Positions 1,578-34,533 of a stretch of 36,374 nt of DNA are shown here, in pieces. The notes under the pieces are model-generated. The model worked only from the letters and a program-made list of their open reading frames with translations. It had not been told where the DNA came from and ran no database searches. The DNA is from a virus: positions 1 to 36,374 of IMG/VR virus record IMGVR_UViG_3300010354_000249; one strand, written 5' to 3'. The number at the start of each line of letters is the position of its first letter. Position 1 is the first letter of the stretch. A program made the position numbers and the translations under genes.

Positions 1578-2369
1578 ATGAAGGCTGCTATCAAGTCAAC
1601 TGCGTTTGCAGTTGCACCATATGATCTACTCGATTCAGGGTTAGACCCGCGAGCAATCGTTGTTTACCTGTGGCTACATCGCTTTGGCTGGAATTCGCCA
1701 AAAGGTTGTTATGCCTCACTTCAGACAATCTCAGAGCGATCCGGTGTAACCAGGAAGATGGTACAACGCTCGCTTAGCACCCTAGTTCAAACCGGTTGGA
1801 TCCAGGTCGAGAAACGTCCTGGGTTTACCGCCGTGTATCACGTCACCATCGACCACCCAGGTCAAAAACGACCTAGGTCAAAACCAACCCAGGTCGAAAT
1901 CGACCCAGGTCAAAAACGACCTATGGGTCAGGTCAAAAACGACCTAGGGGGTCAGGTCGAAATCGACCTACAAACAAAAACCCATTACCAAGAACCCATA
2001 ACAAAAACCCTTTTAAAGCTGGAAAGCGAGTTTCCAGCAGTGTCAGAACGGGCTAAGCAGCGGACAAGGACAAAAGGCTCAGAAGCCTTCGAGCAGTTCT
2101 GGAAGCTGTACCTATCCGCACCGGTCAGAGCAGCCAGTCAGTCGAAGCCGAAAGCACTGGCGCAGTGGAATAAAATCCTCCGGACGGAATCAGCGGACAC
2201 GTTGACCAAGGCGCTTGAGACGGAAATCCAGTTTCAGCAGCAAGCCGGTGACGCCTTCGTCAGTCCACTGCCCGACTGCTTCCGCTGGCTGCGTGACGAG
2301 CGGTACGCAACGGTGAGCGAGCGTCCTGCTGGTGCTCAACACATCAACCACGAACACTACGTTTTCTGA
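1578..2369 (+). CDS. Replication initiator-like winged-helix protein
   Basis: A 263-residue protein. Residues about 10-95 look like a winged helix-turn-helix: a conserved AIVVYLWLHRFGW helix, then LQTISERSGVTRKMVQRSLSTLVQTGWIQVEKRP. This resembles phage replisome organisers and plasmid-type initiators. Residues 94-131 are a low-complexity linker (QKRP, VEIDP, QVKNDL units) encoded by an iteron array, as in lambda O, where the origin lies inside the initiator gene. The C-terminal part (about 165-225) is helical with FEQFWKLYLSAP, a pattern seen in DnaD/replication-adaptor proteins. No helicase or primase gene is present, so its role is probably to mark the origin and recruit the host replisome. 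Confidence 0.7.
   Translation: MKAAIKSTAFAVAPYDLLDSGLDPRAIVVYLWLHRFGWNSPKGCYASLQTISERSGVTRKMVQRSLSTLVQTGWIQVEKRPGFTAVYHVTIDHPGQKRPRSKPTQVEIDPGQKRPMGQVKNDLGGQVEIDLQTKTHYQEPITKTLLKLESEFPAVSERAKQRTRTKGSEAFEQFWKLYLSAPVRAASQSKPKALAQWNKILRTESADTLTKALETEIQFQQQAGDAFVSPLPDCFRWLRDERYATVSERPAGAQHINHEHYVF
1859..1969 (+). repeat. Iteron array (probable replication origin)
   Basis: Six 16-bp units start at 1859, 1875, 1891, 1907, 1930 and 1954. The commonest form is AGGTCAAAAACGACCT; variants include AGGTCGAAATCGACCT, a perfect palindrome. The first four are head-to-tail with no gap, and the last two are spaced by 7 and 8 bp. A degenerate copy occurs near 1802-1820. Because 16 is not a multiple of 3, successive units are read in different frames, so selection acts on the DNA rather than on a peptide repeat. 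Confidence 0.85.
1970..2012 (+). other. A-rich origin-unwinding-type region with 8-mer repeats
   Basis: Directly after the iterons one strand is strongly A-rich and carries AAAAACCC (1976-1983), AAGAACCC (1990-1997) and AAAAACCC (2003-2010) at 14- and 13-bp spacing, followed by TTTTAAA. The arrangement (iterons, then regularly spaced A-rich repeats) mirrors known initiator-gene origins such as lambda ori. Confidence 0.55.
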
Positions 2370-2931: not shown

Positions 2932-3276
2932 TTGACCGAAAAACGCACCGCCGTAAAAGTTGGCTTGACACCTGACGAGAACGCACACATCACCCGCCAA
3001 GCCCAAGCACTTGGCATGGATCGCTCCACACTCATGCGCCTACGCGCTCTAGGAGACCCTGCAGTCGGCGCTGGTGGCTCCGTAGCCCCTCTCACCCTGA
3101 ACGCCTACCACCGCGCCGTACAGGCTGCTCTAGCCGCCTCTCGTGGCTGTGCACCGCGTCCGATCATCGAGGCAATCGCTGCCGCCGTCCTCAACACCAT
3201 CTACAAACCCCCCACTGATGACAAAGCGCAAACGCGTCAAAGCCAGCCCACAGGAGCTGCTCAAACTGATGGATGA
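2932..3276 (+). CDS. Ribbon-helix-helix / MobC-like DNA-binding protein
   Basis: A 114-residue protein starting at TTG 2932 (MTEKRTAVKVGLTPDENAHI). The N-terminus shows the strand-helix-helix pattern of RHH proteins related to plasmid mobilisation MobC and CopG: KRTAVKVGLTPDENAHITRQ, then ALGMDRSTLMRLRALG. The remainder is Ala-rich and helical. It may be a transcriptional regulator or accessory DNA-binding factor of the early operon. No relaxase is present, so conjugative mobilisation is not suggested. Confidence 0.6.
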   Translation: MTEKRTAVKVGLTPDENAHITRQAQALGMDRSTLMRLRALGDPAVGAGGSVAPLTLNAYHRAVQAALAASRGCAPRPIIEAIAAAVLNTIYKPPTDDKAQTRQSQPTGAAQTDG

Positions 3277-4425: not shown

Positions 4426-4657
4426 AATTGACGGCTGGTATTTTTTCTACCAGTCACCTGCGCTAATCCTGACACAAATGCCAGGCGGCGTTAAAACACA
4501 CCGTGCTGTTCAGGGTTTTGTTACAACAATCGATGATGCCAAACTGCTCGCAAGTCGTATAATCCCAGCGATGATCCAAAACCCGGATGCTTACCAGCTA
4601 CCTCACGCCGTCCGTCAAAGCATCCGTCTAACCAATCAGCATGACATCGATCAATAG
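4418..4657 (+). CDS. Small hypothetical protein of the glycosylation cassette
   Basis: A 79-residue protein overlapping UXS by 8 bp and the ParB-like gene by 17 bp, so it is translationally embedded in the cassette. Starts MFEIDGWYFFYQSPALIL, suggesting a compact beta-rich N-terminus, followed by a helical segment. No signal peptide or membrane span. I do not recognise it. Its invariant embedding suggests an accessory subunit of the cassette (inference). Confidence 0.6.
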   Translation: MFEIDGWYFFYQSPALILTQMPGGVKTHRAVQGFVTTIDDAKLLASRIIPAMIQNPDAYQLPHAVRQSIRLTNQHDIDQ

Positions 4658-5408
4658 CCTTAAGCACGATCATAAAAACGCTCGTAAGCGTACTGATCGC
4701 TCTGCAATGCTCATTGCAGAATCCCTCAAGCGTTACGGTGCCGCTCGCTCTATCGTCATCGACGAAGACAACCGTATCCTTGCCGGTAACGGCACCATCG
4801 AAGGTGCTAAAGCCGCTGGCATCAAAAATGTACGCATCATCGACGCAGAAGGTGATGAAGTCATTGCCGTCAGGCGATCTGGTCTTACAGAAGACGAAAA
4901 AGTTGGTCTTGCATTAGCTGATAACCGCACCAGCGATCTCAGCGAGTGGGATGGCGCCATGCTCCATCAGCTCAGCGAAGAGCACGACATCTCTGCTTGG
5001 TTCGATAAAAAAGAACTAGAAGACCTCTTCGGCACTGAAGAAGTCCTAGACGAAGACAGCCCATACACAAACAAAACCAACGCGCCGATCTACGAGCCCA
5101 CTGGTGAGATCCACAAACCCAAGCAGCTTTACGATCCAACCAAAACAAATCAGCTCATTGCTGAAATCGAAAACGCTGACATCCCTGATGACGTAAGGGC
5201 TTTCCTTATCTCAGCCGCTCATCGCCACACAGCTTTCAACTACAGCAAAATTGCTGACTTCTACGCAACGGCACCAAAAGAAATCCAAACACTCTTCGAG
5301 GACTCTGCACTAGTCATCATCGACTTCGAACAGGCAATCCAAAACGGTTTTGTTAAACTCGACCAAAGCGTAGAAGAAGCCTTTAAACAGGATCATCCTC
5401 ATGCGTAA
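4641..5408 (+). CDS. ParB-like domain protein with cassette-specific C-terminal domain
   Basis: A 255-residue protein. Residues about 1-100 are a ParB/Srx-type N-terminal domain: it has the loop ILAGNGTIEGAKAAG (46-60), equivalent to the phosphate-binding loop of ParB, then VRIIDAEGDEVIAVRR and LADNRTSDLSEWD. Residues about 148-240 form a second conserved-looking domain (PIYEPTGEIHKPKQLYD ... HRHTAFNYSKIADFY ... SALVIIDFEQAIQNGFV). Phage and MGE proteins of this layout are often coupled to DNA methylases or modification genes rather than to a ParA partition ATPase, and no ParA is present here. It overlaps the glycosyltransferase start by 8 bp. Likely roles are targeting or gating DNA modification; a CTPase/nuclease activity is possible but unshown. 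Confidence 0.72.
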   Translation: MTSINSLKHDHKNARKRTDRSAMLIAESLKRYGAARSIVIDEDNRILAGNGTIEGAKAAGIKNVRIIDAEGDEVIAVRRSGLTEDEKVGLALADNRTSDLSEWDGAMLHQLSEEHDISAWFDKKELEDLFGTEEVLDEDSPYTNKTNAPIYEPTGEIHKPKQLYDPTKTNQLIAEIENADIPDDVRAFLISAAHRHTAFNYSKIADFYATAPKEIQTLFEDSALVIIDFEQAIQNGFVKLDQSVEEAFKQDHPHA

Positions 5409-6258
5409 TGACTTCTGCGTTTTTATCCTGTCAAACCGTAGACCGGATAACATCAAAACCCTAGAAACACTCCAACGCTCTGGTTACACCGGCAAATGGT
5501 ACATCGTCATTGATGACGAAGATCCAACCGGCGATCAATACAAAACTACCTATGGCGATAAAGTCCTAATCTTCTCAAAGGCTAAAGTCGCGCAAACAAC
5601 AGACTCTTGCGACACTTCAAAAGACAGACGCACTCCCCTATGGGCTCGTAACGCCTGCTGGGATCTAGCTAAAAAGGTCAACTGCCGGTTCTTCTGTCAA
5701 CTCGACGACGACTACAGCTGGTTCGCTTACCGTCGCATCGGTCGTAAAAATCCAGCAGAACCGCCAAAGTATTCCAACTTCCGCGCCGAAAGCCTAGACA
5801 TCATCTTCGCTGGCATGGTCCAATTCCTTCAGGAAACACCATCCGTCTCCAGCATCGCCTTCTCACAAGGTGGTGACTACAACACAGACTCACTCAAAGC
5901 AAGACGAGTCCTGCGTAAAGCAATGAACTCATTCTTCTGTGACTCTGAACGACCATTCAACTTCATCGGTAAATTCAACGATGACGTCAATACCTACATC
6001 TCACACGGTGCCACAGGCAAACTATTCTTCACCTACTGCCCAATCCAACTAGAACAAGCCCAAACTCAAAAGAACAAAGGCGGCATCACTGAAGCCTATA
6101 AAGAAAGCGGCACCTACGTAAAATCTTTCTACACCGTCATGATCTCTCCATCCTCAACATGGATTGAACTCATGGGTCACTCAAACCCACGTCTACACCA
6201 CACACACGATTGGAATAAAGTATGCCCTAAAATCATTCATGAAAAATATCGCCGTTAA
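5401..6258 (+). CDS. TET/JBP-associated-type glycosyltransferase (TAGT / GREB1-like)
   Basis: A 285-residue GT-A-like glycosyltransferase. Visible family signatures in order: FILSNRRPDN (8-17), IVIDDEDP (35-42), the DxD-type metal/donor site LDDDY (101-105), SQGGD (155-159), RKAMNSFFC (172-180), FNDDVNTY (192-199), GTYVKSFYTVM (237-247) and HH (266-267). These match TAGT proteins of phages, relatives of the C-terminal domain of eukaryotic GREB1, which were proposed to glycosylate hydroxymethylated bases in DNA. No TET dioxygenase, cytosine methylase or hydroxymethylase is visible here, so the acceptor is unknown. The gene overlaps the ParB-like gene and follows UXS, implying a pentose donor. 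Confidence 0.82.
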   Translation: MRNDFCVFILSNRRPDNIKTLETLQRSGYTGKWYIVIDDEDPTGDQYKTTYGDKVLIFSKAKVAQTTDSCDTSKDRRTPLWARNACWDLAKKVNCRFFCQLDDDYSWFAYRRIGRKNPAEPPKYSNFRAESLDIIFAGMVQFLQETPSVSSIAFSQGGDYNTDSLKARRVLRKAMNSFFCDSERPFNFIGKFNDDVNTYISHGATGKLFFTYCPIQLEQAQTQKNKGGITEAYKESGTYVKSFYTVMISPSSTWIELMGHSNPRLHHTHDWNKVCPKIIHEKYRR

Positions 6259-30087: not shown

Positions 30088-31008
30088 TTAACCCCAACCC
30101 CAGATCAAGCTGGAGCTGCTGCTCTGTGCCTGGTTCTTTTTTGGCGGTCCCTTCCTTAAGATTAGTTTCATTTCATTTTCAGCGATGTGGACTTTTCGTT
30201 TAGTTGCATCTTGCGCAATGTTTAATGTCCTGGCAATTTCTCGAATGGATCGCTGATTGTTGTCGTTTAACCCGTGACGCAGCTCGATGATCTGTCTGCT
30301 TGAAGCACTCATGTAACTTAACGCCTGATGCACAGCCTCAATTTTTGTATCTTGCTCAAGTTCATCGCCAACAGGATCGTCTTGTGCTGCGATGAGTTCG
30401 ATGTAGGTGCTGGCTTCGCCTGAGCTGTTGACTTGAGCATCCAGACTGCCAGCGTCGATAGAAGCTGCCAGATAATCCTTCATTGCTTTTGGCGTTACGT
30501 TGGCAACTTCAGCGCACTGTTCAATGCTTGGATTAACGCCGTGCAAACGGTTGTAGTCCATGGTGAAGAACCGAGCTTTGCGTAATGCGTCGCTAGCACC
30601 AGACGGCAGTTTGATGATGCGATCCTGTATCTGAATCGCACGCATGATGCCTTGCCTGATCCACCAGTACGCATAAGTGCTGAACTTGTATCCCCGTTCA
30701 GGATCAAATAGTTCTACGGCACGGATCAATCCGATATTGCCTTCCTGCACCAGATCTGGCATGGTTAGGCGATTGGTTAGGTGCTTGTATTTTTTGGCGA
30801 CACCAACCACAAGGCGTAGGTTGCCTTGAATCATTCGTTGCTTGGCACGCTTACCGATTTTGATGATTCGCAGTTCAGCTTTTGTTGGTTGATCGCTGCA
30901 GATCTCGCCCATTCGTTTAATGGCATGACCGAGTTCAATCTCCTCTGCTGCGGTTAGCAAAGGGATTTTTCCGATCTGATTGAGGTAGTCGCGCAGCGTG
31001 TCAGACAT
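30088..31008 (-). CDS. RNA polymerase sigma-70 family factor (RpoD-like)
   Basis: A 306-residue sigma factor. Region 1.2: DTLRDYLNQIGKIPLLTAAEE (3-23). Region 2: NLRLVVGVAKKY, DLVQEGNIGLIRAVELFDPE and KFSTYAYWWIRQGIMRAIQ (about 63-136). Region 3 around 145-190. Region 4 (about 225-290): MSASSRQIIELRHGL ... SIREIARTLNIAQDATKRKVHIAENEM. It lacks region 1.1 like group 2 cyanobacterial sigmas. The region 4.2 helix departs from the usual TRERVRQIE motif, so -35 recognition may differ from host promoters. It probably redirects host polymerase to phage promoters. A terminator hairpin lies 15 bp upstream of its ATG. Confidence 0.92.
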   Translation of the reverse strand: MSDTLRDYLNQIGKIPLLTAAEEIELGHAIKRMGEICSDQPTKAELRIIKIGKRAKQRMIQGNLRLVVGVAKKYKHLTNRLTMPDLVQEGNIGLIRAVELFDPERGYKFSTYAYWWIRQGIMRAIQIQDRIIKLPSGASDALRKARFFTMDYNRLHGVNPSIEQCAEVANVTPKAMKDYLAASIDAGSLDAQVNSSGEASTYIELIAAQDDPVGDELEQDTKIEAVHQALSYMSASSRQIIELRHGLNDNNQRSIREIARTLNIAQDATKRKVHIAENEMKLILRKGPPKKNQAQSSSSSLIWGWG

Positions 31009-31633: not shown

Positions 31634-32332
31634 TTAGGTGGACAGTCGCTCCTGGATAAACAGCAGGTGTTTAGGGAGCGTGATGTGAGCAGTCATTAGC
31701 TCACCTTCTGGCACCGCAAACTCTTTATTGAACTCTTTGATGATCTTGTTGCGTTTAACAACAGGCTCAGCAGCTAACAGATCACGGATCGACTTGAGAT
31801 CCTTATCTGTAATTGGGAGTTCTTCAGGGTCAAGCTCTGGTGCCGGTTCTTCCTTTGTAGCAGCGGCAACAGGCTTTGCTTTTGCAGGAGCTGGCGGTGC
31901 AACAGTTATTGATGCTGGTTCACCTTTAGCCTCTTCTACTTCCTCTCTCGCCCACAGCTCATAACCAAGGCTAAAAAAGTAGGCTGCTGCAGCACAGAGA
32001 CCACGACGATGGGTATCTGTTAAAACGCGGCAGGAGACTTTTTCGAAAGCTACAGGTTGATTCCTGTGATCTTGACAAGGGTATGGAAAACAGACGGTAG
32101 ATTCCCCATCAGGACCACGGAAGTAGCCCATGATGTAGCCAGTACCGTCTGGTGCTTTCCAGACGTGGCTACCGTTGTCATCTTGCATCAGGGCAAACTG
32201 CCACCCTGGTGCTTTGGTGTGTAGGTGATTAGCGATCCGTGCCCAGCTGACGTAGTCTGCGGCGTAGGATCCAGTCCCTTTACGGAATACATCATCTTTA
32301 GTGATGATGCCCGCGAGGTTAGGGTAAGTCAT
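31634..32332 (-). CDS. DUF1071-like single-strand annealing protein
   Basis: A 232-residue protein. SYAADYVSWARIANHLHTKAPGWQFALMQDD, then YIMGYFRGPDGESTVCFPYP and VSCRVLTDTHRRGLCAAAAYFFSLGYELWA follow the DUF1071/Erf-like layout: a YxSWA start, a WxF strand, and the 'R.l.d..RrglC.a.A..fgLG.eLW' helix. Residues 140-175 are an Ala/Pro/Glu linker and the last 55 residues form an acidic helical tail. Proteins of this class anneal complementary DNA in phage recombination. Supported by neighbouring SSB and RusA. Family assignment is by pattern memory. Confidence 0.68.
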   Translation of the reverse strand: MTYPNLAGIITKDDVFRKGTGSYAADYVSWARIANHLHTKAPGWQFALMQDDNGSHVWKAPDGTGYIMGYFRGPDGESTVCFPYPCQDHRNQPVAFEKVSCRVLTDTHRRGLCAAAAYFFSLGYELWAREEVEEAKGEPASITVAPPAPAKAKPVAAATKEEPAPELDPEELPITDKDLKSIRDLLAAEPVVKRNKIIKEFNKEFAVPEGELMTAHITLPKHLLFIQERLST

Positions 32333-33580: not shown

Positions 33581-34111
33581 TCAGCCCTGTTGATCGAGCT
33601 GCTTAGATCCGGTGGTGCTCAGATCCTTGTTGTAGTGACCGACCTGCGCGTAGCTCAGCACAGGTTTCTGGCTCATACGGAAGAACACCATCTGACCAAT
33701 CTTCATGCCTGGATACAGCGGCAGCGGCAGTAGCTGGCGGCTGTTCTTTAGCTCCAGTGTCAGCACGCTGCCATTCCAACCTGGATCTGCGTAGCCAGCG
33801 TGAAGGTTTTCGTATCCTTCCCGTGCGCGGCTTGACTTGAGGAAGAACAAGCCAGCGATGTTTTCTGGCATGTTGAAGACCTCGATGGTCTGAGCAAGGA
33901 TGAACTGCCCAGGCTTTAGCTCGTAGGGATTGTCTGCAGTGCGTCCTGCAATGCTGAGTGGGCGCATGTCTAGGTTCTCTGCAGACTCGATCATGATCGT
34001 GTCACCAAGACGCAGATCAAGACTGGCTGGATTGACCAATGCCTCTTCATAGTTTTGCACCATGCCATCGGTGCAGAGTGCTTTAATCTCGTAGTCGCAG
34101 AGGATGGTCAT
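33581..34111 (-). CDS. dcd: dCTP deaminase (Dcd/dUTPase fold)
   Basis: A 176-residue protein from ATG 34111 (MTILCDYEIKAL). Motifs: NPASLDLRLGD, then MPENIAGLFFLKSSRAREGYENLHAGYADPGWNGSVLTLELKN, and PLYPGMKIGQMVFF. These hold the SSxAR substrate site and the ADPGxxGxLTLE catalytic Glu of dCTP deaminases. The enzyme turns dCTP into dUTP, feeding thymidylate synthesis, and lowers dCTP. A longer open frame to 34351 would add 80 residues with no match to the family and is not favoured. A terminator follows the stop. Confidence 0.88.
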   Translation of the reverse strand: MTILCDYEIKALCTDGMVQNYEEALVNPASLDLRLGDTIMIESAENLDMRPLSIAGRTADNPYELKPGQFILAQTIEVFNMPENIAGLFFLKSSRAREGYENLHAGYADPGWNGSVLTLELKNSRQLLPLPLYPGMKIGQMVFFRMSQKPVLSYAQVGHYNKDLSTTGSKQLDQQG

Positions 34112-34347
34112 TGATTGGTTTGACTGAAGCTTGAATTTAGTTGTTGGGGACTTACAAACGGAAAGCTGCTTACACGGTGCCTCTAAAAGGGAGAACGCAC
34201 CCCTGTGGAACCACACCGCGTCCTCGCTGGGAACCTGTAGCTTCACGCGCTTGGGAGTCGTACTCCACCAGTTAGCCCGACCAGTGGCATCCCCTGCGCA
34301 GGCAGCAAGCCGAACAACGGGATCAGTTGCTCCGTTACGCCCCACCA
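34112..34347 (-). other. Structured leader region upstream of dcd, no convincing gene
   Basis: About 236 bp between a small ORF and dcd. The frame is open but its translation does not look like a protein family. On the minus strand several hairpins are visible: CCTGCGCAGG palindrome, GGAG-TACGA-CTCC, TGTGG-TT-CCACA, and GGTGC ... CTC-CCTTTTA-GAG-GCACC. It may be a structured RNA or 5' leader controlling dcd. I checked for tRNA and the glutamine-riboswitch core and did not find either. Confidence 0.4.
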
Positions 34348-34533
34348 TCACTGCTCGTGATAATGCTTTGTTGCATCTAGTTGCCAGCAGTATTCAAGAT
34401 AGGCAACTTGCCACTCTGCTTCGCTATCAAGCATATATCGCTGAATCGGACTGAGCTTAATGCAGTCTTCAGCAGGAATACGATCAAACGAAGCAAGAAT
34501 ACGCTTGCAGATAAACCACAAAGCACGAAGCAT
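34348..34533 (-). CDS. Small hypothetical protein
   Basis: A 61-residue protein (MLRALWFICKRILASFDRIP...), Trp/Tyr/Cys-rich with a basic hydrophobic start and an acidic middle. It overlaps the stop of 34533-35210 by one base, so it is co-translated. Function unknown. Confidence 0.55.
   Translation of the reverse strand: MLRALWFICKRILASFDRIPAEDCIKLSPIQRYMLDSEAEWQVAYLEYCWQLDATKHYHEQ

Follow-up and report, generated by a model that had tools for sequence, protein, structure and literature searches.

The window, the whole stretch of viral DNA analyzed here, is a record of 36,374 bp. Its first 123 bases recur at its end, which gives a circular map of 36,251 bp. Rfam and tRNA scans of this DNA returned no match. 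The gene at 1578–2369 (plus strand) has 263 codons and encodes a protein of 263 amino acids that matches the Pfam family HTH_36 (41.4 bits against a cut-off of 25, E 1e-10). Residues 13–248 match phrog_270, replication initiation protein (E 1.4e-22), and weak matches to O-like PHROGs were also obtained (e.g. phrog_391, E 3e-7). By these profiles, the protein is a predicted replication initiator of the HTH_36/phrog_270 families.

The AF2 model of the initiator displays an N-terminal winged helix (wHTH; residues about 10–90, with blocks at pLDDT 75–91), a linker predicted to be disordered (residues about 96–163, pLDDT below 50) and a helical C-terminal domain (residues about 166–240); the pTM of the model is 0.36 and only its local domains are trusted. 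The segment with the predicted recognition helix corresponds to residues 56–72 (1743–1793, plus strand; helix 59–72 by DSSP) and carries the motif TRKMVQR. A PDB sequence search with the initiator gave no match, and a fold search with its wHTH returned only generic winged helices, none with an E below 0.001. The next gene (2369–2686) has no PHROG and no Pfam family, and no lambda P-like helicase loader was recognized there; the gene at 2644–2928 has no PHROG match. It is followed at 2932–3276 by a gene for a small protein with a marginal match to a NikA-like mobilization protein (PF21983, 27.3 bits against a cut-off of 27).

Six 16-bp units are located inside the initiator gene on the plus strand, confirming the count given by the initial annotation. 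The first four are contiguous (1859–1874, AGGTCAAAAACGACCT; 1875–1890, AGGTCAAAACCAACCC, with a degenerate right arm; 1891–1906, AGGTCGAAATCGACCC; 1907–1922, AGGTCAAAAACGACCT), and the fifth (1930–1945, AGGTCAAAAACGACCT) and sixth (1954–1969, AGGTCGAAATCGACCT, self-complementary at 14 of 16 positions) follow after gaps of 7 and 8 bp. The AGGTC-N6-GACC(C/T) unit that had been described is exact in five of the six, but the unit at 1875 has AACCC, with one mismatch. A search tolerating three or fewer mismatches to the 16-mer AGGTCRAAAHCGACCY gave six plus-strand matches in the genome, all of them these units. Terminator-like matches on the minus strand (1869–1959) were rejected, as they are the iteron palindromes read as hairpins. 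Base shuffles of the initiator gene contained 0.05 units on average, with a maximum of 2, versus the six observed, and synonymous-codon shuffles contained 2.6, reaching six in 11 of 2000; protein composition thus accounts for part of the array, but not for all of it. Since the protein itself favors the units, shuffling one gene is a weak test, and a comparison of relatives was used instead. The six units start in codon frames 2, 0, 1, 2, 1 and 1, which bears out the earlier remark that the 16-bp period is out of step with the codons. Arrays of five and six units are offset by 15 bp, a 16-bp unit less one base of spacing, so that the reading frame is kept.

The array is followed by an A-rich tract with three AAYAARAACCC-type repeats (1970–2016, plus strand, 32% G+C), the proposed unwinding element. 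The three elements reported previously, AACAAAAACCC, ACCAAGAACCC and AACAAAAACCC, were found at about 1973, 1987 and 2000 with spacings of 14 and 13 bp. In strand stability, the tract ranks in the bottom 1% of 45-bp stretches, but it is the minimum of neither the genome nor its neighborhood. Both repeat sets fall within the linker that is disordered in the AF2 model. The conserved tract runs beyond position 2012, where the initial annotation had ended it, to an unstranded inverted repeat directly after the A-rich repeats, GCTGGAAA-GCGAG-TTTCCAGC (2018–2038), a third element of the putative origin that had been missed. Each of the 19 relatives that combine class A or B iterons with C-terminal type 1 has a perfect inverted repeat of 8–9 bp at this place; among 12 distinct sequences, 100% of the cells are paired, with compensatory changes at three of the eight pairs. 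In relatives of C-terminal type 2, its place is almost always taken by GGCGC-AA-GCGCC or CGCGC-AA-GCGCG, and the same scan found no such repeat in either of the two class-E type-1 loci or in several others.

Comparison of relatives indicates that the repeats are conserved as DNA. Among 13 sequences that share the iteron class and the C-terminal type, codons for the same residue differ in 57% of comparisons over the wHTH and 47% over the C-terminus; this figure falls to 6.6% in both the iterons and the A-rich repeats. Synonymous change over the repeats is seven- to eightfold below that in the rest of the gene; conservation of the array in relatives, suggested earlier as a check, is seen as a collapse of synonymous variation exactly over the array and the A-rich tract. 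Within one protein, a single DNA unit yields GQKRP, QVKND(L) or RSKT(T), and 25 of the 33 relatives with at least three class-A units use all three codon frames. Since the units are read in all three frames, the conservation is of DNA. Synonymous conservation, three-frame reading and the predicted linker together support the previous view that the array is maintained for its DNA sequence, with a disordered linker tolerated in the protein.

Several iteron classes occur among the relatives, and behind nearly all of the arrays stands one and the same A-rich motif. AAYAARAACCC repeats at 13–15 bp are also present in cyanophage KBS-S-2A and in a distant metagenomic phage group, where they are translated in another codon frame. 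Because the iterons there are different while the A-rich element is the same, the A-rich doublet alone was searched, as DNA, in 2.9 million viral contigs. Among the 80 matches listed, most are winged-helix initiator genes with the doublet directly after an iteron array; matches outside initiators (e.g. L111, L121 and L147) were treated as chance. This search selects for the motif, and the fair test is the set of loci found by protein similarity, in which the motif occurs at least once in 81 of 82 loci, the exception ending at a contig edge, and in about equal numbers in the three codon phases (50/43/41). A stricter doublet occurs twice in 84,980 bacterial and archaeal genomes. One occurrence, in a metagenome-assembled genome (MAG) of the cyanobacterium Aphanothece saxicola, lies in a related winged-helix initiator gene (L264:6853–7824), where the A-rich repeats come after CCCCC...GGGGG palindromes; this locus could belong to a prophage or to a phage contig binned with the MAG. 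The other, a Bacteroidales tandem repeat outside any long initiator gene, was taken as chance. When the genomes were scanned with the wHTH alignment, no relative turned up. The same A-rich repeats precede C-terminal domains of at least two kinds that look different, the PDCFRWLRD and SGWGDVF types (L080, L072, L126 and the window).

The occurrence of the motif with different iteron classes and two C-terminal types suggests that it is read by something shared by all of them, perhaps a host factor or a common property of the initiators. Its constancy beside unrelated iterons suggests a specific signal, rather than mere A+T content, and such a signal bears on origin melting and helicase loading. 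Chances are about even that, across a whole group of cyanobacterial phages, a constant and sequence-specific element, AAYAARAACCC at 13–15 bp, is a shared melting or helicase-loading signal combined with interchangeable specificity cassettes of recognition helix and iterons.

The iteron class follows the recognition helix across 55 distinct wHTHs; the classes were defined by simple motifs, selected once the sequences had been inspected. All 33 wHTHs with a [ST]RKxxQR helix, the class-A type to which TRKMVQR of the window belongs, are accompanied by GGTC-N6-GACC arrays, versus at most one such unit with each of the other 22. Helices of the form S(Q/E)xV(I/V)RR go with CCCCT...AGGGG iterons in seven of seven. 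Five of the 55 (L218, L242, L243, L244 and L259) gave no class count in the automatic scan; for these, the arrays were classed by visual inspection of the contig sequences and carry less weight. Three loci of the CEK class (L212, L214 and L217) mix GGGTC...GACCC and GGAGC...GCTCC units in one origin; these arrays are possibly intermediates in a change of specificity.

Near-identical phage contigs show this correspondence at close range. Two contigs with class-A iterons (L224 and L226) and one with class-C iterons (L248) are 88–99% identical in the flanks (about 1.5 kb on the upstream and about 1.4 kb on the downstream side), but only 62–67% identical over a block of about 300 bp that contains the recognition half of the wHTH and the iterons. 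Within this block, SRKVIQR is replaced by SQLVIRR, three differences among a larger set, and the iterons switch from GGTC-N6-GACC to CCCCT...AGGGG. In the comparison of L080 with L072 and L064, identity climbs from background to 90–100% within and after the A-rich repeats. Mapped onto a phylogeny of the C-terminal domain, the iteron class requires 12 changes, versus an average of 12.9 for shuffled labels, and the cassettes therefore reassort freely against this domain. Phages thus appear to swap the iterons and the recognition half of the winged helix as one cassette, leaving the A-rich repeats and the C-terminal domain in place. Judged from sequence evidence, the initiator and its putative origin are modular, the DNA-binding domain and origin being exchanged against a conserved C-terminal domain. 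The diversity of cassettes may be driven by selection against cross-recognition, or against origin-targeting by competitors. The near-isogenic pairs constitute a natural experiment, which makes the specificity code of this wHTH family directly testable.

The iteron array and A-rich tract are very probably a phage replication origin of the lambda type, located, as originally proposed, within the initiator gene; family assignment, synonymous conservation and the matching of helix and iteron class all support this reading. Because the recognition helix matches the iteron class, we infer that the winged helix recognizes the palindromic 16-bp units, with one dimer probably bound to each. Initiator dimers coating the iterons would strain the A-rich tract, and the loaded array would melt the adjacent A-rich repeats. 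The C-terminal domain would then bring the helicase machinery to the opened strand, and the inverted repeat would close the origin on its far side. GC skew over the circle, which had been suggested as a check, located no origin: its maximum lies near 0.35 kb and its minimum at 8.6–15 kb. The peak near 0.35 kb is where transcription diverges, and its sign is opposite to that of a bacterial origin; GC skew follows transcription and was rejected as evidence for an origin.

The array might instead be an operator with which the initiator would repress or adjust expression of its own gene or of an antisense transcript. It is palindromic, its presumed reader has a wHTH that resembles those of transcription regulators, and iteron-bearing replicons often combine origin and operator roles. 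However, the array begins about 280 bp into the coding sequence, no unit is found at the promoter, and an operator would have no need for the A-rich repeats and the inverted repeat (mostly present) that come after it, which makes this explanation unlikely. A site for partition or packaging instead of replication would agree with the plasmid centromere-binding proteins among the best fold matches of the wHTH (none significant), and with the ParB-like protein encoded at 4641–5408. This assignment is very unlikely, given that the presumed reader belongs to replication-initiator families, that the site falls within the initiator gene, next to an A-rich tract, and that its class follows the initiator helix.

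It is extremely unlikely that the repeat is a feature of the protein, a repetitive flexible linker with the DNA regularity as a by-product. The retention of 2.6 of six units on average in synonymous shuffles of the single gene would fit such a linker, but the three peptides (GQKRP, QVKND or RSKTT) read from one DNA unit in one protein, the reduced synonymous change and the A-rich repeats starting in all codon phases argue against it. The replication origin remains the preferred reading of the array and its A-rich tract.

The host of the phage is probably a cyanobacterium, as related loci are found in KBS-S-2A (Synechococcus) and the Aphanothece MAG. Elsewhere in the genome, a ParB-like/nuclease-like protein is encoded beside a TET-associated glycosyltransferase (4641–6258; PF20691, E 2e-31), and a dCTP deaminase-like gene lies apart from this pair at 33581–34351; these predicted functions hint at a modified, glycosylated base in the phage DNA. 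A recombination pair, a Sak-like single-strand annealing protein and an exonuclease, is encoded on the minus strand (31634–32332 and 640–1251), and could promote cassette exchange. The phage also encodes an RNA polymerase sigma factor (30088–31008, minus strand; phrog_351, E 2e-62).

The lambda origin has four iterons inside gene O, spaced 20–24 bp, each an inverted repeat with a central A tract, and O acts as a dimer (PMC7466680). The initial annotation was therefore mistaken in regarding palindromic units as unlike those of lambda (TCCCTC-AAAAC-GAGGGA in L032); palindromy is a likeness to lambda, not a difference. In both systems, inverted-repeat iterons lie inside the initiator coding sequence with an A-rich asymmetric tract directly beside them, after the iterons. 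An imperfect inverted repeat, seen by eye, comes after the A-rich tract of lambda, where the window also has an inverted repeat, and extra iterons in Stx phages add in-frame residues as they do in the family of the window. The window differs from lambda in its six shorter, partly contiguous units, in an A-rich tract of constant AAYAARAACCC repeats, and in that no P homologue is seen next door. The window initiator has no match to PF04492 (Phage_rep_O) at E up to 1, whereas lambda O matches this family, and hhalign of the two proteins gave a weak alignment (probability 2%). Although the origin would work like that of lambda, these comparisons tend not to support a common protein family with lambda O.

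The gene layout is shared by CPKG_00028 of KBS-S-2A (L030), annotated only as a hypothetical protein, which has a wHTH 46% identical to that of the window, a repeat array and the repeat AATAAAAACCC, with a different iteron (CCCCAAAAGGTGG) and recognition helix (KPDHVRQ). Prochlorococcus phage MED4-184 was set aside: its A-rich direct repeats differ in sequence, and it shows no clear array of palindromes. A literature search, with most subscription journals outside its scope, found no paper on iterons or such origins in cyanophages. In the PLE satellites of Vibrio cholerae, the RepA_N domain and an iteron-bearing ori covary and are swapped as a module (PMC8263062). As in the window family, the C-terminal domain is conserved while the DNA-binding domain and origin are exchanged; however, PLEs are satellites with an intergenic origin and a RepA_N domain. 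In the window family the iterons are inside the gene, and the domain and its target therefore move as one contiguous block. The proposed origin is of a known kind, represented by lambda ori in gene O and by the modular RepA/ori of PLE satellites, while the cyanophage family, its constant A-rich element and its natural cassette swaps appear to be new.
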